Translations under genes and position numbers: made by a program
The notes under the pieces: generated by a model
What the model was told of the DNA's origin: nothing
Databases searched by the model: none
Seen by the model: the letters and a program-made list of their open reading frames with translations, nothing else
NCBI GenBank assembly: GCA_905182895.1
Contig: CAJJDD010000021.1
Span: forward strand, 1-64,000
Length of the DNA stretch: 64,000 bases
From: Flavobacteriales bacterium UBA4466
Lineage (GTDB): Bacteria > Bacteroidota > Bacteroidia > Flavobacteriales_D > Sanyastnellaceae
Direction of reading: 5' to 3'
In this document: one piece after another, positions 16,037-26,557 of the stretch
How positions within the stretch are numbered: the stretch's first letter is position 1
Layout: every line of letters begins with the position of its first letter

Positions 16037-16723
16037 ATGAAAAATGGGATCCTCTGTATAGAAACAGCTACTAAGAATTGCTCTGTGGCATTATTCGAAG
16101 ATGGACACTTAGTGTCATGTAGAGAAGAGTCTAGTACAGAATATATCCACTCTGAGAAACTAGCCCAGTTTATCGATGAGGTACTAACAGAAAACAAAAT
16201 CACTGCTAAAAATTTGGCGGCTGTGTCACTAGCTTCAGGTCCAGGATCTTATACGGGATTGAGAATAGGGGTTTCTACAGCCAAGGGAATAGGTGTAGGT
16301 GCAGGAATACCATTGATAGCCATACCTAATTTAGTTCAGTTGGCTCTGGCAGCTAAAACTATAGATGATTCTTTCGAACTATATATCCCTATGTTGGACG
16401 CTAGAAGAATGGAAGTGTTTACTGCTGTTTTTACAGCTAATCTAGAAGTGCTAGAAAACACTTACGCTAAAGAAATTGACGCAGATAGCTTTAATGATTT
16501 GGCAGGTAAAAAGATTGCCATTTTTGGGGATGGGGCTGAAAAATGTCTTGAAACATTAAACTGGTTAAATGTAGAATTATTAGAAGTCCAATGCAGTGCA
16601 CGAAACCTTGGTCAGATTACGTTAACTAAGTTAATCGAGAAGAAATTTGAAGATTTGGCATATTTCGAGCCTTTTTACTTGAAAGATTTTATCGCTGGAA
16701 CTCCGAAGAAAATATTTAAATAA
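16037..16723 (+). CDS. tsaB: tRNA threonylcarbamoyladenosine biosynthesis protein TsaB
   Basis: 228 residues of the ASKHA fold, with the opening phosphate-loop strand ILCIETATKNCSVALFEDG and the family motif SLASGPGSYTGLRIGVSTAKG (about 66-85). It partners TsaD, TsaE and TsaC in making the t6A37 modification of ANN-decoding tRNAs; TsaE is encoded elsewhere in this window (35711). The length and lack of the TsaD metal-binding histidines make this TsaB. It follows the adaptor gene by six bases and is followed immediately by a GTG-started lipoprotein gene. Confidence 0.95.
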   Translation: MKNGILCIETATKNCSVALFEDGHLVSCREESSTEYIHSEKLAQFIDEVLTENKITAKNLAAVSLASGPGSYTGLRIGVSTAKGIGVGAGIPLIAIPNLVQLALAAKTIDDSFELYIPMLDARRMEVFTAVFTANLEVLENTYAKEIDADSFNDLAGKKIAIFGDGAEKCLETLNWLNVELLEVQCSARNLGQITLTKLIEKKFEDLAYFEPFYLKDFIAGTPKKIFK

Positions 16724-16724
16724 A

Positions 16725-17143
16725 GTGGGAAATAGACTTATCATATTACTAGCCATTGTACTGTTAACCGGTTGTAAAGGATGCAGGGAGAATAATAGTG
16801 TGGTTCCTTTAGTAAGCGTAGATTTTTCGATTAATATTAATGATGCGTCTTATTTCGAGTTGACGAGTATTACAGGATGGGTTTATGTAACAGGAGGTAG
16901 CCGTGGTATTATCATTTATAGAAATAATATAGATCAGTTTACAGCTTTTGATAGACATGCTCCTTATAATGCAGAAGAAGGATGCAGGGTATTTGTTCTT
17001 GAAGATGATATAACTCTAAAGGATGAATGCAGTGAGTCCAGCTGGTTGATTCTAGACGGAAGTTTGATTTCAGGGCCTGCAGAACAACCTCTAAACAGTA
17101 CAGCACGAATCTAAGCGGGTCTATTCTCAGAGTAACTAATTAG
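16725..17143 (+). CDS. Rieske-like small lipoprotein (frameshifted 3' end)
   Basis: It starts with GTG at 16725, one base after the tsaB stop. The signal peptide ends in a lipobox (LLTGCKGCR). The body resembles small Bacteroidota Rieske-type proteins: a GSRGIIIYRNN strand, then FDRHAPYN, EEGCRVFV, DECSESSWLILDG and GPAEQPL. The canonical CxH...CxxH cluster ligands are not all present (only one Cys in each expected pair), so the iron-sulfur site may be lost or obscured by errors. The apparent stop at 17112-17114 follows a break near 17098. In the shifted frame the tail STNLSGSILRVTN continues to a stop at 17143. Function is unknown. Confidence 0.6.
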
Positions 17144-17439
17144 TAGTGTTTTAACGTTCCGAATATGAAACGTGGACGGCTGTAAGCATCAATGTTTTCA
17201 TATTCCTTGTTAGCAAATTTTATCTTATTGTCAGTATTGCTCTTCCAATATTTGATTTTACTTTATGAGGTGTTTGACATAATTTTTTCTTCTGGTAGAG
17301 AATACCTCCAAGAGCCCCATTTTTATTGAGTATTTTGAGATATCTATATTTATTATTCTCTGCCATAAGCATAGAAGTAAATGAGAGAAATAAAAGCATG
17401 GACAAATGTTCTTAATTGTATTTCGATTTTTGTCGTCAT
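17140..17439 (-). CDS. Small secreted protein, unknown function (frameshifted)
   Basis: No long open frame exists, but two minus-strand pieces read like a real exported protein. One is MLLFLSFTSMLMAENNKYRY, continuing with NKNGALGGILYQKKKLCQT (about 17401 down to 17240). After one shift near 17235 it continues IKYWKSNTDNKIKFANKEYE and SRPRFIFGTLKHY to a stop at 17140. A possible earlier ATG at 17439 (MTTKIEIQLRT) joins through another shift. The stop overlaps the end of the convergent lipoprotein gene by four bases. I do not recognise a family. Confidence 0.35.
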
Positions 17440-17613
17440 TCTTAAATCGGCTACAACTTCCGCATATCCACACTATATATTGAGCTCATTAATCTAAACA
17501 ATATTAATGAGATATATAGAACGCCAATTTATTAAGATCCTAAAAAAAGCCACCAGCTACTTCATATTTTGCCACGGAAAATCAATTTGGGGTTTTGCTA
17601 GAAGTTTAATCAA

Positions 17614-17650
17614 TAAAAAAAGAGGGCCGAAACCCTCTCTTTTATTTTTT
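17614..17650 (-). terminator. Rho-independent terminator of the large T9SS-substrate gene
   Basis: On the minus strand a 6-bp GC-rich stem (AGAGGG/CCCTCT) around a TTTCGG-type loop is followed by a run of seven T. It lies 17 bases beyond the stop of the gene ending at 17667. Confidence 0.85.
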
Positions 17651-17666
17651 ATTGTGATAGTGTCTT

Positions 17667-20600
17667 TTATCTCTCGATGAGGATTTGTTGGCGCACCACG
17701 CCTTGATCATTATCGATGGAAATCACGTAGTTTCCTGTTGCAAGCTCAGTTGTGTTTAGAGTCGTGTTTGTTTTTGTCAACACGCCTTCATTCACCATTC
17801 TTCCTTGCGCATCAAAAAGCTGGTAACTCTCATTGATGAGCGATTCGTCAATGGATATCGTTACGCTGGTAGATGCAGGATTAGGGAAGATGTTGATGGA
17901 TTGCATCATTTGTTCTTCGATGTTTGTTGGAAGAACTACGATGTTGAGTAACACAATTTCACCTTCACATCCGTCAAGAGTAGTTTCTTGAACACCCAAA
18001 TCTGCACTTCCTTCTAAACTCCATACCACTTCAATAGAAGAAGAGCCTTGTCCAGATGTGATTACGCCCCCAGAAATTGTCCAAGCGTATGAACTTCCTG
18101 CAGTTTCTGTATAACTGTAAGATTCAGTGCTGAAGGCGGCTGGAATTGCGCTACCAATAATATCATAAGCGACAACATAAGAGCAAGATCCGTCATCAAT
18201 CGTTGCGTCAGGATTGAAATTACAGGCCAAAGAATCTGTACAGCCTGAAATTGATGTTTCTTGACCTTCACATTCACAATTATTCTGAATGGTGTCATTA
18301 ATAGTATTTGAATCGCCATCATCACAAGAATCTCCAATAACTATGCAAGATCCATCTTCAGTAGTGGCTTCTAAATTGTAATTGCAGGCCTCAGGATTTG
18401 TACAACCCGGTATACTTAACCCTTCACATTCACAATTATTCTGAATGGTGTCATTAATAGTGTTTGAATCACCATCATTACAAGAATCTCCAATAACTAA
18501 GCACGATCCATCTTCAGCAGTGGCTTCTATATTGTAATTGCAGGCCTCAGGATTTGTACAACCCGGTATACTTAACCCTTCACATTCACAATTATTCTGA
18601 ATGGTGTCATTATTGTTTCTGTATTTCCATCATTACACGGATCTCCTATAGAAATACAATTGCCATTGTCTGTAGTAGCTTCCGGATCGTAATTGCATGC
18701 TTCAGAATCTGTACAACCAGTAATATTTCCACCAGGAAAAATAACAACATTTACACATGATTCTACAGACTCACAAATGCCATTTATAATCGAGACACAA
18801 ATTTCCCCAATTCCTTCATAATCCCAAATAATAGAAGGTTGATAGTTGTCATTGTTCCCCTCGATAACACCGCCTGATACATTCCAATTGTAAACAGCAT
18901 CCTCGATTAAAATTACTTCATAAATTTCTGAAGTGAACTCTGTAGTGATATTTGCTCCAGAAATAGATACTTCGGGCAGAAAGTAGCATGAACCATCGTC
19001 ACATGACGCCTCCGTGTTGTAGTTGCATGCTTCCGAATCGATGCAGCCTAGTAACCCCTCACCACCACAATCTCCACATTCATCAAATTCAAGGCATGTG
19101 CCATCATCACATGTCGCTTCTGGGTTGAAGTTACAAGCGAAAGAAACAGTACATCCGGCAACTCCCATTCCTCCACAATCTCCGCACTCATCAAATTCAG
19201 CGCAAGATCCGTCATCACATGTCGCTTCTGGATTGAAGTTACAGGCGAAAGAAACAGTACATCCAGCAACTCCCATTCCTCCACAATCTCCGCACTCATC
19301 AAATTCAGCGCAAGATCCGTCATCACATGTCGCTTCTGGATTGTAGTTACAAGCGAAAGAAACAGATGCAGCCTAGTAACCCCTCACCACCACAATCTCC
19401 ACATTCATCAAATTCAAGGCATGTGCCATCATCACATGTCGCTTCTGGGTTGAAGTTACAAGCGAAAGAAACAGTACATCCGGCAACTCCCATTCCTCCA
19501 CAATCTCCGCACTCATCAAATTCAGCGCAAGATCCGTCATCACATGTCGCTTCTGGATTGAAGTTACAAGCGAAAGAAACAGTACATCCAGCAACTCCTA
19601 TTCCTCCACAATCTCCGCACTCATCAAATTCAGCGCAAGATCCGTCATCACAGAGGCCTCATCATCAAAATTACATGCAGAGCTATCCATACATCCGGGT
19701 ACGGCCAAAGTTTCGCAATCACAGAGGTGAAACCCTAATTGGGTGAAAGTATTCGCTGGCAATGAATCGTATTCATTAAGAATGTCAAAAGACTCCGGGT
19801 TGGCTGTATAACCTTGTGTAAAAGAAGCTTTTCTAACTAGAGTATGATCCTTAGAAACAAAAGCTTGATCTCCTTGATTATCTATATAACTTCCCCAGCC
19901 CGGGAATCCAGCTCCTTCTCCGATCTTTCCGAATATGTCTACTAATTGGTTCCCGCCATCTTTTAATATAGCTACTGCATCATTTCCATCAAAATACATC
20001 ACTTCTTGACCATCGTTGTATGATGGGTTTACGAAAACGTCTGCTTGCAATTGTAACTCATCCCAGACTGGAACTTCAAATCCTGTACCATCTGGATTTC
20101 TTTTATCCAATACTACTACATACACATCATAAGGAGCTATGGAAACTCCAGTTAAATATGTGATATTTCCTGGTGTTGCGCTACCATTTTGAAATCTCAC
20201 TAAACCATATTCTGAAGAAACAGCAAAAATAATTGGAAAAATTGCTTTACCATGATTATTAGAAAACCCCTCTACTACCTCAGAGATTATTAAATCTGTA
20301 CATCCTGAAATTGATGTTTCTTGACCTTCACATTCACAATTATTCTGAATGGTGTCATTAATAGTATTTGAATCACCATCATTACAAAAATCTCCAATAA
20401 GTAAGCAAGTTCCATCATCAATTGTTGCATCAGCATCGAAATTACATGCAGAGCTATCCATACATCCGGGTACGGCTAAAGTTTCGCAAGTATATAAGTT
20501 AATATTATCTATAAACAAGTTGGTATAACCGTTTGTACCTTGCTGTGTATAATGGAACATTACATTATGTGATTGACCATCTGCATAAGCACTCACATCT

Positions 20601-23076
20601 ACACTTTTAAAATTCCAAGGAGTTGTTCCCCCAGTGTTTCCACAATGAGGATCTTGATCTGCTTGTAGCTCAAAAATAGTATCTCCATCAATAAGCACGG
20701 TTAAAACATCATCTGCAGCACAGCCATTTTGTTGTCTTTGCCACCAATCTAAAGTAGCTGAACCTCCTGCATCTATAATTACATCTTGGGAAATAGAGTT
20801 AATGGAGCCTTGATTCCAGCCGCCAAACCAAGCAGAAGTAGTGGAATAATTATACGCCCTATTTCCAATCGTATGAGTAGTGATGGGTAAAAATCCAGTA
20901 CTTGAATCATCTAAAAACGATTCAAACTGTGACCAGTTTGCTGCTGAGTTTTCAAAATCACCATTTAATAGATGATCACTGTCACTTCCTTCACAAATAG
21001 ATTGATCACAAGCGTTATAAATATATAATGCTGGAGCACAGTTATTTGCTTCAAACTGAAAAATTCTGGTAGATAACATGTTATCTGAAATAGGATAAGA
21101 ATAAGTCCCAACTCCTGTAATAAGTATGGTTATTGTTTGACTTTCATCCCTAATATTAAATGGCGGTGCAATACTTCCCTGATACGTCCCCATATCTGTT
21201 ACTGTTAAAGTTATATTATTACTATTACAACTCACTTCTGCTGTTATTACAGGAGGCGTTTCGATAAAAATATTTGTCTGAATAGTGCTGTCACAGCCTA
21301 AAGAAGAGGTTAGTGTGGTGAAATATTGAGAATCTGAAATAGGGCTAACAGAAGAGCCATCTGGTAGGGTATAACTCTCTCCGCTGCACCGGTAGGCAGT
21401 GATCTCAGTCAATACGTCTACTGCAATTTGGGCAGAATAGGTAATTATGCTATCACACCCATTGGAACCTGTAAAATTCGCGGTGTGACTAAAGGGCACA
21501 GTAATGTTATCATAGCTAGTTCCATCGGGAAAAGTATAATTTGAACCATAACACAAGTCAAGATTTGTATTTGAAAAAATGGTGTTTCCGCAGATCTGTA
21601 AACTGGATACAAAAATATCTCTACAGTAATTGATGCCAACTGGGCAACTGGTTGCAGTTTCATATATTGCAGTTCCTAAATTTATATCTAGAATATCTGT
21701 AAAGCCTGCGGCAATTTGTATAGATTCATTAACATCTATATCGTAATAAAAACTCCTTATTCCAAACTCCCAAAAATCGTGTGGAATTTGTTTTGTCCAT
21801 TCTAAAGCAGGTCCTGCAGCGCTTGAACCATCCCATTTGAAAAGCATGTGTTCAAAATTGGTAGATGGTGGGTCATTAAAGACAGGACCTGGATCAATAT
21901 CTACAGAAATACTTGGAGAGAGTGTCATAGAAAAGTACATTTGACCATCCCCTTCACATTCCAAATCAACACCCGTATCAAGAAAACTAACACTCCATTC
22001 CATAGAGGAGTTCGTGTTTGGATATTTCAATATCCCTGGTTGAGGCGGTGTGACTGTACCTACAGGATTGATTGGGTTGAAAGGAAAACTTCCCACTACG
22101 TAAATATTCCCAACATCGTCAAACTCTAATTGATCAACCGAGGAATCCCAATTTCCGCTAGGATAAGCATAACTGTCATGACCATTATAACTACCATCAT
22201 TATTTAATACAATATTAGTAATTTTACTTTATTTTGATTGGGTGGGTTGATTGACCATGTTGATCCAGGATCTGGTTGGATTGAGTCTTTATGCGTTCCG
22301 CCAAATAATAATCGACCACTCGCGTCTACATCTATGTCAACTATTTCCGCACCAGTACAAGCCAAATCAAAGTTAACACCCCAAATAAAACTGCCATCAG
22401 TTCCGCTATATTTTGCAGCACAAGGCACCGAACTACCAGCTACTACTGGATCGATCTCAAATAGTCCAGGACCCGGATCTAAATCTATTATGTCATCAAA
22501 CGAACCTGCTATCAATACATCACCACTGGGGTCCAGCGTCATTTTACATTCTATGTCAACTGGAATGGCCCAAAGTAAATTTCCATTATTCCCATCCAAT
22601 TTCTGAATAACTGCATATTCAGTATTTAGATTGAAGTTTAAAATGGGAAATCCTGGATCAACATCCATATAGTCGGTAGCTCTGGTATTAACAAAAACAT
22701 CCCCATTTCCGTCTATAGCCACCTCTTGTATAGATGTAGCTAAATTATATATTTCACCTGATAAATTTCGAACTGCCCATTGTATAGCACCTGCGGTGTC
22801 TAGTTTCATAATAAAACCATTGGCACCCCATGTGTTATTGAATGAAACCTTTGTTCCGTTTGAAGTTAAATTATGAAGTCCTGCACTAGGATCAAAGTCA
22901 ACGGTATTACAAAAATATCCTGCAACAACAGTGTTGCCAGCATTATCTGTTGTAATATCGGTGGGAGCATCCCAACGGTCGGACCCCGTGGTGAAATAAT
23001 AATCGGAGGCGAATGTTTGGGCGTTTGAGTTTAATACAAGTAATATTGCCGAAGTAAAAAGTAATAGTTTCTTCAT
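17667..23076 (-). CDS. Giant Cys-rich repeat protein with T9SS type A sorting domain (frameshifted)
   Basis: Minus-strand pieces at 22204-23076, 19598-22096, 18572-19276, 18062-18337 and 17667-18230 form one protein of about 1,800 residues. Order: signal peptide (MKKLLLFTSAILLVLNSNAQ); a beta-propeller-like region with repeated DVDPG/DLDPGPG motifs; cysteine-containing Ig-like segments (LDLCYGSNYTFPDGTSY, YRCSGESYTLPDGSS); and a carbohydrate-binding-like domain opening LLNGDFENSAANWSQF. A lamin-tail-like domain (DLIISEVVEGFSNNHG...) follows, then many Cys-rich GC(T/M)-x-ACNFxxxATxDDGxC units, including 36-residue tandem copies. It ends in an Ig-like domain and a T9SS type A tail (INIFPNPASTSVTISID). 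It should be exported by T9SS and attached or released at the surface; an adhesin role is inferred. Breaks lie near 22100-22200, 19660, 19280-19370, 18600 and 18240-18330. Confidence 0.85.
19073..19660 (-). repeat. 108-bp tandem coding repeats (36-residue Cys-rich units) with a 324-bp higher-order copy
   Basis: Units encode GCTVSFACNFNPEAT-CDDGSC-AEFDECGDCGG-MGVA, 36 residues or 108 bases, and nearly identical copies run through this stretch. The 10-mer atgcagccta occurs at 19041 and again at 19366, followed by the same sequence. The spacing of 325 equals three 108-bp units plus one base, so the second block is both a duplication and out of frame. The copy number could be real or an assembly collapse/expansion. 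Confidence 0.85.
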
Positions 23077-23081
23077 GAGTG

Positions 23082-23089
23082 CAAAGATA
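23082..23089 (-). promoter_or_regulatory. Putative -7 box (TATCTTTG) of the giant T9SS-substrate gene
   Basis: It matches TAnnTTTG on the minus strand and ends five bases upstream of the ATG at 23076. Initiation a few bases downstream would leave essentially no leader, so the mRNA may be leaderless. Confidence 0.35.
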
Positions 23090-23109
23090 TATTTTCATGC
23101 TATATTTAT

Positions 23110-23131
23110 TAGCCCATTTGTAGCCCATTTT
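23110..23131. repeat. Tandem 11-bp direct repeat in a divergent promoter region
   Basis: Two adjacent copies, TAGCCCATTTG and TAGCCCATTTT, lie in the 68-bp gap between the giant secreted-protein gene (minus) and the gene at 23145 (plus). Their position suggests an operator, perhaps for the neighbouring predicted DNA-binding protein. Confidence 0.5.
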
Positions 23132-23144
23132 GTATTTTTATACA

Positions 23145-24404
23145 ATGGAGTCTACTGATTTTTTGAGGAATCAAATTGAAACAACTTTTGGTTCCGGTAT
23201 AAATAACGGAAAAGACATTAAGTTACTTCAACAGCAATTAGAAGAAAAGACACAGGCATATATTGGCTATAATACATTGCGCAGATTTTTCGGACTACTT
23301 CCAAGCACTAAGCCTAATCAATCCACATTAGATGTTCTTTCGAAATATGTCGGTTTTCAGGACTTTTATCTTTTTACGCATCAAAAAAGATATAGTGATT
23401 TAGAAACTACGCTTAAACTCGCTAGAATAAAAAATAGCAATTTAATTTCTAAAAACGATACCTACTTTATTCATTCGCTAATAGCTTCAGAACAATTTAC
23501 TAGCTATTTCAATTCAATGGCGGAATACTTCTTACACCGCAAGAACGTAAAGTGTCTTCATCAATTATTTACCAGCAAAATAAAAAATATTGAGCGTTAT
23601 CAGCAACTTCAAATTTGCGTCCAAATCGGCACACTTTTGAGAAATTATTATTTAAATGATCTAGCTTTTTTAACTCAAGTTATTCAAAATGATTGTTTTA
23701 GAGAGGTTGTTTTGTATAATTTTGTGGATTATGATTACTTCAATCATGGTTATATCAACCTTATTAAAACATCGATCAGTATAGAAAAAAACAGAAACCA
23801 TTTACTGTTTCTTCACTTAATTCTATTTCATAATAATTTTTTAACCAAGTGTGAATCTAATAACAAAATGCTCCCTTTGAACTTAAAAGGATATAAGTCC
23901 GTTCACCCTATTGTAAAAGGACGGTTTCAATTGTCTAAGCTTACATTAATAAATGAAAATAAAATACAAACCAAGATTTTTCAAAAGACTCTAAAACTGG
24001 CTAAAACTGATAATAAAGCTGAGTTTTATTTTGAGCTAATTCCTGGTTTAATATTGTTAAGACGGGTCGATTTACTTAGAAAAATTCTCAGACAACATCT
24101 TGTCTCTCTTTTTGAAGTGAACGACTATAACCGATTTACTCATTTAGCTATATTTCAAATAGCATTATGTTTGGTGTACATTGATGAAGAATCTTGGCCA
24201 AAGGCAAAAACTCAATTCTCTCAGATCAATATTAATCAAGTATTCATCTCTTATGATTCTTATATTAAGCTGTTTTACCTCATAGCGGACTATCATCTTA
24301 ACACAACTAAAAAAAATGAAGTTCTAGAAGAATATATGAATATTTCTAGGGCTACTAAATTTCAACTTTTTTCTAAAGATTTCCTAATGAACTATTTTGC
24401 CTAG
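23145..24404 (+). CDS. Predicted HTH-like N-terminal protein with all-helical C-terminal region, unknown family
   Basis: The ATG at 23145 is preferred over an in-frame TTG five codons upstream. The first 75 residues (MESTDFLRNQIETTFGSGIN, then LLQQQLEEKTQAYIGYNTLRRFFGL and STLDVLSKYVGF) look like a helix-turn-helix module. The NTLRRFFGL...STLDVLSKYVGFQDF layout recurs in Bacteroidota regulators, as I recall. The other 340 residues are helical, rich in Leu/Phe/Tyr/Asn and without motifs I recognise; TPR-like helical pairs are possible. No signal peptide or membrane helix is seen. Divergence from a huge secreted protein and the shared 11-bp direct repeat suggest transcriptional control of that gene. 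This function is an inference. Confidence 0.65.
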   Translation: MESTDFLRNQIETTFGSGINNGKDIKLLQQQLEEKTQAYIGYNTLRRFFGLLPSTKPNQSTLDVLSKYVGFQDFYLFTHQKRYSDLETTLKLARIKNSNLISKNDTYFIHSLIASEQFTSYFNSMAEYFLHRKNVKCLHQLFTSKIKNIERYQQLQICVQIGTLLRNYYLNDLAFLTQVIQNDCFREVVLYNFVDYDYFNHGYINLIKTSISIEKNRNHLLFLHLILFHNNFLTKCESNNKMLPLNLKGYKSVHPIVKGRFQLSKLTLINENKIQTKIFQKTLKLAKTDNKAEFYFELIPGLILLRRVDLLRKILRQHLVSLFEVNDYNRFTHLAIFQIALCLVYIDEESWPKAKTQFSQININQVFISYDSYIKLFYLIADYHLNTTKKNEVLEEYMNISRATKFQLFSKDFLMNYFA

Positions 24405-24431
24405 AAGCGAAATCTGGAAATTCTGATCCAT

Positions 24432-24467
24432 AAAAAAACGCCTCTAATTGTAGAAGCGGTTTTTAAT
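24432..24467. terminator. Bidirectional terminator between the HTH-like gene and ahcY
   Basis: The stem CGCTTCT/AGAGGCG (one G-T wobble) closes a 6-base loop. On the minus strand it is followed by seven T (ahcY end); on the plus strand by five T (end of the gene at 24404). Confidence 0.75.
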
Positions 24468-24518
24468 TTTATTTGGAAGAGTAATTAATACTAATTACTC
24501 GGATATGATCGACTAATA

Positions 24519-25851
<1,333 letters not shown>

Positions 25852-25861
25852 TTATGCGTTG

Positions 25862-25869
25862 CAAAGGTA
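25862..25869 (-). promoter_or_regulatory. Putative -7 box (TACCTTTG) of ahcY
   Basis: An exact TAnnTTTG match on the minus strand, 22 bases upstream of the ahcY ATG. No clear -33 element at normal spacing. Confidence 0.45.
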
Positions 25870-25939
25870 CAGATTATCAATAGAAAAATGAAACCCCGTA
25901 TACTTTTGGGAGAATGTATATGAAGCAAGCACAATTCCT

Positions 25940-25947
25940 TAGTTTTG
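25940..25947 (+). promoter_or_regulatory. Putative -7 box (TAGTTTTG) of the phosphopantetheinyl transferase gene
   Basis: It matches TAnnTTTG and ends seven bases before the ATG at 25955, implying a very short or absent leader. A second match, TACTTTTG, lies at 25901-25908. Confidence 0.35.
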
Positions 25948-25954
25948 TTACACA

Positions 25955-26557
25955 ATGCCACTAAAAGAACTAAGAGAGATTAAGGGAGGAGCTGAGTTAG
26001 GAATATGGAAACTAACAGAGCGCGTTTCTGAGCTAGAAAGCCTTATGTCTGAAGAGGTAGCTACAGAAAAGTACAAAGGATTTAACCATGACCTAAGACG
26101 ATTAGAATGGCTGGGAGCCAGGGCACTTATGTCTAAAATGGGGCTTAAAAAAACACTTCAGTATACAGAGCATGGAAAACCTTTTTACCCTTCGGGGCCT
26201 AAAATTTCTATCTCACATTCTAAAGATTTCATAGCTATTATTACGCATCCAGAGAATGAAGTAGGAATAGATGTTCAGGAAGTTGTAGATAAAGTCAGAA
26301 GGATAAAACACAAATTCTGTAATACACATGAGCTTGATTGGGCCACTTCAGATGAGGATTTTACTATAATTTGGTCAGCTAAAGAAGCGCTTTTTAAGGT
26401 AAAAGAAAGGAATGTTCTGTTCAAAGAAGATATCCAAGTAAGCCGTCCCGAAAATGGGCAGCTTCATATCACCTATAAAGAAAGTCAAGCTTACTCAGGA
26501 GTTCTTTTGAATCTAAAAGATTACGAAGGTATTTATGTCGTGGAGGGTAATTCTTAG
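25955..26557 (+). CDS. 4'-phosphopantetheinyl transferase superfamily protein
   Basis: 200 residues of the Sfp/AcpT-type family. The magnesium- and CoA-binding motif is visible as GIDVQEVVDKVRRIKHKF (from about residue 107) and WSAKEALFKVKER (about 143-155). An upstream ISHSKDFIAII strand is also typical. It transfers phosphopantetheine from CoA to a carrier-protein serine. No carrier protein or polyketide/NRPS cluster is near, so it probably serves the fatty acid ACP or a distant system. It is divergent from ahcY with its own -7 box. Confidence 0.9.
   Translation: MPLKELREIKGGAELGIWKLTERVSELESLMSEEVATEKYKGFNHDLRRLEWLGARALMSKMGLKKTLQYTEHGKPFYPSGPKISISHSKDFIAIITHPENEVGIDVQEVVDKVRRIKHKFCNTHELDWATSDEDFTIIWSAKEALFKVKERNVLFKEDIQVSRPENGQLHITYKESQAYSGVLLNLKDYEGIYVVEGNS

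Follow-up and report, generated by a model that had tools for sequence, protein, structure and literature searches.

An 11-bp sequence repeated back to back between two divergent genes raises the question of whether the product of one gene controls the other through this repeat, and with which sign. The window examined here is a 64,000-nucleotide stretch of a contig of the Flavobacteriales bacterium UBA4466, in which the intergenic gap between the divergent starts at 23076 and 23145 covers positions 23077-23144 (68 nt). The preliminary description of this DNA had proposed a dedicated regulator/adhesin pair, namely a regulator with an HTH-like N-terminus and a long helical C-terminal part of an unfamiliar family, divergently transcribed across 68 bases from a giant T9SS substrate, with two adjoining 11-bp copies in the gap. 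Both the gap and the copies are present as described: half-site 1 (TAGCCCATTTG) occupies 23110-23120 and half-site 2 (TAGCCCATTTT) occupies 23121-23131 of the plus strand, the two copies abut, and each is conserved at a period of 11 across the family.

The target gene, which encodes a T9SS-tailed exported protein, lies on the minus strand at 17670-23076 (the lower end is approximate) and is split into several reading-frame pieces in the assembly. The last piece matches TIGR04183 with 44.1 bits against a cut-off of 23, which identifies a type A C-terminal sorting domain at residues 114-185 of this piece, calculated to lie at 17676-17891 on the minus strand. The N-terminus (MKKLLLFTSAILLVLNSNAQ) is signal-like by eye and is also called a signal peptide by a simple detector, as would be expected for a T9SS substrate. 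The giant substrate is therefore recovered, in broken form. Tandem arrays are observed in this gene at 18265-18718 and 19040-19652, with units of 156, 108 and 325 bp that encode cysteine-rich modules; because the units are in tandem and up to 99% alike, their copy number probably varies. On the other side of the regulator, the minus-strand gene at 24519-25839, which we take to be ahcY, is spread over two frames here, whereas in a congener (G002) the gene is a single open frame of 443 aa; this split and the broken T9SS gene both indicate that the assembly contains frameshift errors. An Rfam search of 16500-26000 returned no matches.

The regulator gene extends on the plus strand from the ATG at 23145 to the stop codon ending at 24404 and encodes 419 residues, as delimited by the open reading frame, the family alignment, structure models and fold comparison. 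The listing of open reading frames places the start at TTG 23130, and the homologues favour the ATG at 23145. The N-terminal domain (residues 1-88), modelled alone with a pLDDT of 91, consists of five helices (3-15, 22-36, 42-48, 59-68 and 74-86) and no strands, and its fold matches are mostly of the XRE/lambda-repressor type, to which most of the 50 matches listed belong. The Z scores are 6.5 for EspR (the best), 6.2 for C.Esp1396I, 6.1 for TP901-1 CI, 5.7 for SinR and 5.0 for both PrgX and ComR. The model is thus consistent with an XRE/lambda-repressor-like fold of four to five helices with its HTH at helices 2-3, in which YNTLRRF at residues 42-48 would form the recognition helix; Pfam HTH_3 does not match this domain. 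In the full-length model (pLDDT 89.6), the first domain is followed by a TPR-like superhelix, from about residue 85 to 419. In the VIA-align comparison, the best structural match of the superhelix is domain III of MalT (Z 13.7, rmsd 6.1, 269 aligned), followed by Rap (11.7), PlcR (10.7), AimR (10.5), NprR (9.9), PrgX (8.8) and Rgg144 (8.3). Because helical repeats often reach such Z values, these matches speak to the fold and not to kinship, and Foldseek alone returned no match below E 0.001 for either the whole-protein or the N-domain model. Both structural claims of the preliminary description, the HTH-like N-terminus and the long helical C-terminal part, accordingly agree with the models.

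The unfamiliarity of the family is also borne out. The window protein has no match among Pfam, NCBIfam, PDB sequences, plasmids and phages; family-wide searches of PADLOC and PHROGs give weak scattered matches, none at a meaningful score; and Pfam searches of 30 members find no TPR family, the sole exception being ANAPC3 at E 0.15. The literature searched, which left most subscription journals outside its coverage, holds no recognised description. The family thus appears to be undescribed, and none of the family models searched covers it. Homologues are found in 48 of 114 genomes of the same taxonomic family by sequence search and in 124 of 356 genomes of the order by profile search, and an even draw of 392 genomes of the phylum yields 13 with matches. 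The named relatives are mostly uncultured Flavobacteriales (Crocinitomicaceae, Flavobacteriaceae and Cryomorphaceae), with Cytophagaceae in addition. The best phylum-wide matches after the window itself are N-terminal domains of larger proteins with open frames of 823-878 aa. In two loci from other Bacteroidota (L258 and L259), the N-terminal domain, here with the motif STLKRFF, heads larger proteins with open frames of 823-861 aa, which indicates that the DNA-binding domain extends past the regulator family. For the comparisons below, 212 homologues were reduced to 129 sequences by dropping proteins shorter than 340 aa, near copies and duplicates of the window locus (L001, L098 and L116), and the 126 with a start and 80 nt of upstream sequence were used for the repeat count. 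Sequence set A2 omits three of 115 sequences (one each from L148, L206 and L207), and target set A3 omits five of 64 (L074, L087, L158, L170 and L187). The window regulator falls in a clade of eight members with a support of 99. A tandem pair of regulators is seen in L053 and L037, in which the second has its own GGTCCA/GGTACA half-sites.

A single copy of the 11-bp sequence is unremarkable in the window: six occurrences with at most one mismatch are found against 3.17 expected, and 11 of 100 shuffles reach six. The tandem pair, searched with up to three mismatches, has a single occurrence in the genome (1.65 Mb, 62.9% complete) and none in the backward control. The strongest test is comparative, and it establishes the tandem repeat as a feature of the family. 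Of 126 homologues, 44 have a direct repeat of period 11 with at least eight of nine matches no further than 80 nt from the start; the shuffled mean is 2.83 with a maximum of 7 in 100 shuffles, control genes give 24 of 899, and each other period from 7 to 30 is found in zero to eight homologues. The same threshold is missed by 82 of the 126, and several regulator subfamilies are devoid of any tandem operator. The consensus of the operator matrix is TTTGATACATA-TTTGGTACATT, and most high-scoring loci have the end of the operator 5-8 nt ahead of the regulator ATG. Extra copies are found at L045, with three and a fourth imperfect one, and at G235, with five in a row (four overlapping matches).

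The letters of the operator go together with the type of HTH. All 58 GTA-type operators belong to proteins with [SN]YN or, in L078, SYN-class recognition helices, and all six GCCCA-type operators to proteins with [GS][FYV]N at the start of the recognition helix. The GRTACA operator accompanies the helix [SN]YNTLRR, and GCCCA is the form of the window's clade, in which six of the eight members carry it. Both halves change together: GGTACA stands in both halves for the first gene of L031 and for L130, L149 and L160, four members of one subclade, and GATACA in both halves for the second gene of L031. Such paired change is as expected of a protein-binding site, though with few independent events given the clade structure. 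Two further arrangements are seen. In L050, L056, L058, L059, L064 and L069, by eye, an inverted GGTACA-N5-TGTACC replaces the tandem repeat about 15 nt before the regulator ATG, beside a membrane-protein gene, and this subfamily may possibly have switched from head-to-tail to symmetric binding. In three Cytophagaceae members (L088, L094 and L097), the divergent gap contains GTCCAAAT direct repeats about 10 bp apart, well away from the regulator ATG, which are perhaps another operator type.

The position of the operator relative to the promoters is informative for both genes. In Flavobacterium psychrophilum, the sigma-A box TAnnTTTG is placed at -12 to -5 in the portion of the study cited (PMC9723704). 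Of 82 operator sites, which include a few weak matrix picks, 36 have a target-strand TAnnTTT[GA] box at a distance of exactly 21 nt from operator position 4, and one of the 36 (L187) is at a misplaced site; 1000 shuffles give a mean of 0.30 and a maximum of 3. Neighbouring spacings are rare (two sites at 20 nt, four at 22 nt, and four at 32-33 nt, one repeat further), and 40 of the 82 sites have no strict box at 20-22 nt. In the window, the predicted target -7 box (TATCTTTG) lies at 23082-23089 on the minus strand with the same 21-nt spacing, and transcription of the target would start at about 23077 if the -12 to -5 placement, as far as it is described for that other genus (PMC9723704), applies here. 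The 21-nt spacing and this placement together put the 22-bp operator at a centre of -41.5 relative to the target, the value given for class II CAP sites in the consulted part of PMC10936776. The operator thus probably occupies the position of a class II activator, with the placement of the box borrowed from another genus. The proposal that the shared repeat is a control element of the target promoter therefore gains support from both placement and conservation.

On the other side, the predicted regulator -7 box (TATTTTTA) lies at 23133-23140 on the plus strand, 4 nt before the ATG. In 38 of 126 homologues, exactly 4 nt separate the end of a TAnnTTT[GA] box from the regulator ATG, and in 51 of 126 the distance is 1-8 nt, compared with 59 of 936 control genes. 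Such a position implies a leaderless mRNA, and the regulator promoter is apparently leaderless; leaderless mRNAs amount to only 5.5% in Flavobacterium psychrophilum according to the cited portion of PMC9723704. For GTA-type operators, half-site 2 and the regulator -7 box overlap. GCCCA-type operators stand at another distance from the regulator's own box, but two of four such sites keep the target spacing, which weakly suggests that the target-side spacing is what selection holds. A sigma-70 promoter scan, which is uninformative in Bacteroidota, found 7 promoters against 7.9 expected.

The operator also occurs away from regulators. A search for GRTACANNNNTGRTACAT in 42 genomes selected because they carry the regulator gives 45 occurrences, spread over 31 of these genomes, with one occurrence for the backward control and six for a period-10 form of the operator; 42 genomes of the order in which no regulator was detected contain two occurrences, both in one genome, a comparison that is partly circular since 33 of the 45 sites are at regulator loci. 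All 12 unlinked sites have an opposite-strand start 13-137 nt away, and a box is found at 20-22 nt on the opposite strand in seven of them and within the next 60 nt on the same strand in one. The twelve sites thus share the polarity of the regulator-linked sites. Some of their targets look like families that are also found beside regulators: by eye, a 102-aa IRVTKA protein is the target in L254, L041 and L082, and a protein that we presume to be TerB-like is the target in L244 and L032.

An upstream neighbour in divergent orientation is present for 53 of 59 operator-bearing regulators and for 249 of 796 control genes (p 2e-19); 30 of these 53 neighbours are called exported, compared with 76 of 249 divergent control partners (p 5e-4). 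Among operator targets within 150 nt, 42 of 64 are called exported and 22 are not, compared with 214 of 611 control genes called exported (p 3e-6), and all of these p values are indicative only, given a coarse export detector and relatedness among the loci. Only four of 59 targets have a recognised T9SS tail, some targets being cut by the end of the locus; the others include lipoproteins, an outer-membrane barrel and proteins that appear to be cytoplasmic. Additionally, the best homologue of the window target within the taxonomic family, in G011, is separated by one small gene from a distant relative in the regulator superfamily, the neighbourhood having been examined in this one of 15 genomes with target matches.

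The target and the regulator form a cassette of about 7.4 kb (17140-24513, ends approximate) that is absent as a unit from the two congeners with a readable site, G001 and G002, in which the lipoprotein gene to the left of the cassette is directly followed by ahcY; G003 gave no match. The cassette was also considered as a mobile element, and no end repeats are evident by eye. The idea of a dedicated pair of regulator and putative adhesin is therefore supported in part: it fits the window, where the tandem occurs once in the incomplete genome and both genes are absent together from two congeners, but is too narrow as a general pairing of regulator and T9SS substrate, since targets across the family are varied and some genomes carry further sites. 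The preliminary description had named homologues unlinked to secreted proteins and lacking an HTH as the outcome that would speak against it; what is found are neighbours enriched in exported proteins and a predicted HTH.

In light of these results, the regulator is likely to be a self-repressing one-component class II activator of exported-protein genes that represents an undescribed Bacteroidota family. The XRE-like HTH would recognise the 11-bp half-site, and two protomers would sit head to tail on the tandem repeat, one helical turn apart. On the strand of the target gene, the operator centred near -41.5 would take the place of the -33 element, from which the bound regulator would bring RNA polymerase to the secreted T9SS protein gene. 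On the other strand, this operator lies over or directly next to the predicted leaderless promoter of the regulator itself, so that binding would be expected to switch off the regulator gene. The probable receiver of the signal is the TPR-like superhelix.

Repression is a common role of XRE-like HTH proteins, and phage CI and SinR are among the top model matches of the N-domain. The regulator could thus keep both divergent promoters silent and be released by a ligand, a reading for which the overlap or abutment of the operator with the regulator's own -7 box would also speak. The target side argues otherwise: there the operator precedes the core promoter, with a constant distance of 21 nt to the -7 box, which is the place of an activator, such exact spacing is needless for repressor sites, and none of the 12 unlinked sites overlaps the target -7 box, which makes repression of both genes unlikely. 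The closeness of the operator to the regulator ATG in most high-scoring loci would also suit a repeat that serves autoregulation of the regulator only, with an incidental neighbour, and some neighbours are presumably housekeeping-like (FabH-like in L065 and L200, PheT-like in L187). This is very unlikely given the fixed spacing between operator and target box, the unlinked sites that keep the same polarity where no regulator is present, the divergent arrangement of 53 of 59 and the gain or loss of both genes together.

A different question is what the superhelix senses. In a receptor of the RRNPP type, it would bind a small peptide that is secreted and taken up again, and would thereby govern activity at the operator, a proposal that is compatible with class II activation. 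The order of the domains, HTH and then TPR-like superhelix, fits such a receptor, as do the superhelix matches to Rap, PlcR, AimR, NprR, PrgX and Rgg144 (Z 8.3-11.7) and the presence of PrgX and ComR among the HTH matches. Against it, the best match of the superhelix is domain III of MalT, a sugar sensor, none of the 30 members searched matches a Pfam TPR family, and no convincing small secreted ORF stands beside the window gene when all ORFs of at least 20 aa are considered. RRNPP systems are moreover described from Firmicutes and their phages in the part of PMC10075063 consulted, and on balance we give a peptide receptor of this type a low probability. A broader proposal, equally speculative and with a small chance of being right, is that the family comprises intracellular receptor-activators that read a signal tied to their own exported proteins, e.g., a peptide released from the partner or a back-up of export, and adjust the transcription of these proteins via portable operator-target cassettes; such a Bacteroidota counterpart of RRNPP would use an operator code (GATACA, GGTACA or GCCCA) to separate paralogues within the same cell.

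A comparison with known systems shows likenesses and differences for the self-repressing activator proposed here. MalT is an activator, a large ATPase with a C-terminal LuxR-type HTH; the regulator shares the TPR-like sensor superhelix of MalT, whereas the HTH of the regulator is N-terminal and its length leaves no space for an ATPase domain. For CAP, a symmetric dimer, the binding site is an inverted repeat, whereas the operator of the regulator is a direct repeat; the likeness to class II CAP/CRP lies in the 22-bp operator centred at -41.5, the CAP value being that of the consulted part of PMC10936776. The same part of that source, on the SARP AfsR, describes an activator, as proposed here, that combines an HTH with an all-helical domain and uses two 11-bp direct repeats side by side, one helical turn apart (PMC10936776). 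However, the SARP HTH is described there as OmpR-type and winged with beta strands, whereas that of the regulator is all-helical and XRE-like; the SARP repeat is 8 bp from the -10 element, whereas here 21 nt separate the -7 box from operator position 4; and SARPs are from Actinobacteria, whereas this family is from Bacteroidota. Of the SARP features, direct repeats spaced by 11 bp (or 22 bp) are thus present, with a period of 11 in 44 of 126 homologues, and the winged HTH and the 8-bp placement are not. With RRNPP proteins (PlcR, NprR, PrgX, Rgg and AimR), as far as the consulted part of PMC10075063 describes them, the regulator shares domain order, size, the N-terminal XRE-like HTH of the DNA-binding members and an exported-product partner next door. 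TPR repeats recognised by sequence are lacking, and so is an adjacent gene for a secreted propeptide of 10-100 aa in the window, where the neighbours are the T9SS-tailed gene and ahcY; some homologues have lipoprotein targets of 99 aa. The phylum differs as well, the survey having covered Firmicutes and viruses only according to the same part, and the tandem direct-repeat operator at a class II position belongs to the regulator (PMC10075063). Because defining features of both fail, the regulator is filed under neither SARP nor RRNPP. PorX/PorY, in the parts of PMC11320123 and PMC10951265 consulted, likewise ties transcriptional regulation to the T9SS in Bacteroidota, but is a two-component system of another family that acts on the secretion machinery, with no substrate-specific divergent pair described in those parts.

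About a third of the sampled genomes of the order (124/356) carry the regulator, yet no family model searched covers it. To our knowledge, the control of individual T9SS substrates and of other surface proteins in Bacteroidota is poorly understood. For the regulator studied here, the sequence itself reveals the operator, the layout of the promoters and the candidate targets, and the cassette offers a direct way to test class II activation at the unusual TAnnTTTG promoters of Bacteroidota. The cassette could additionally yield insulated promoter parts for Bacteroidota.
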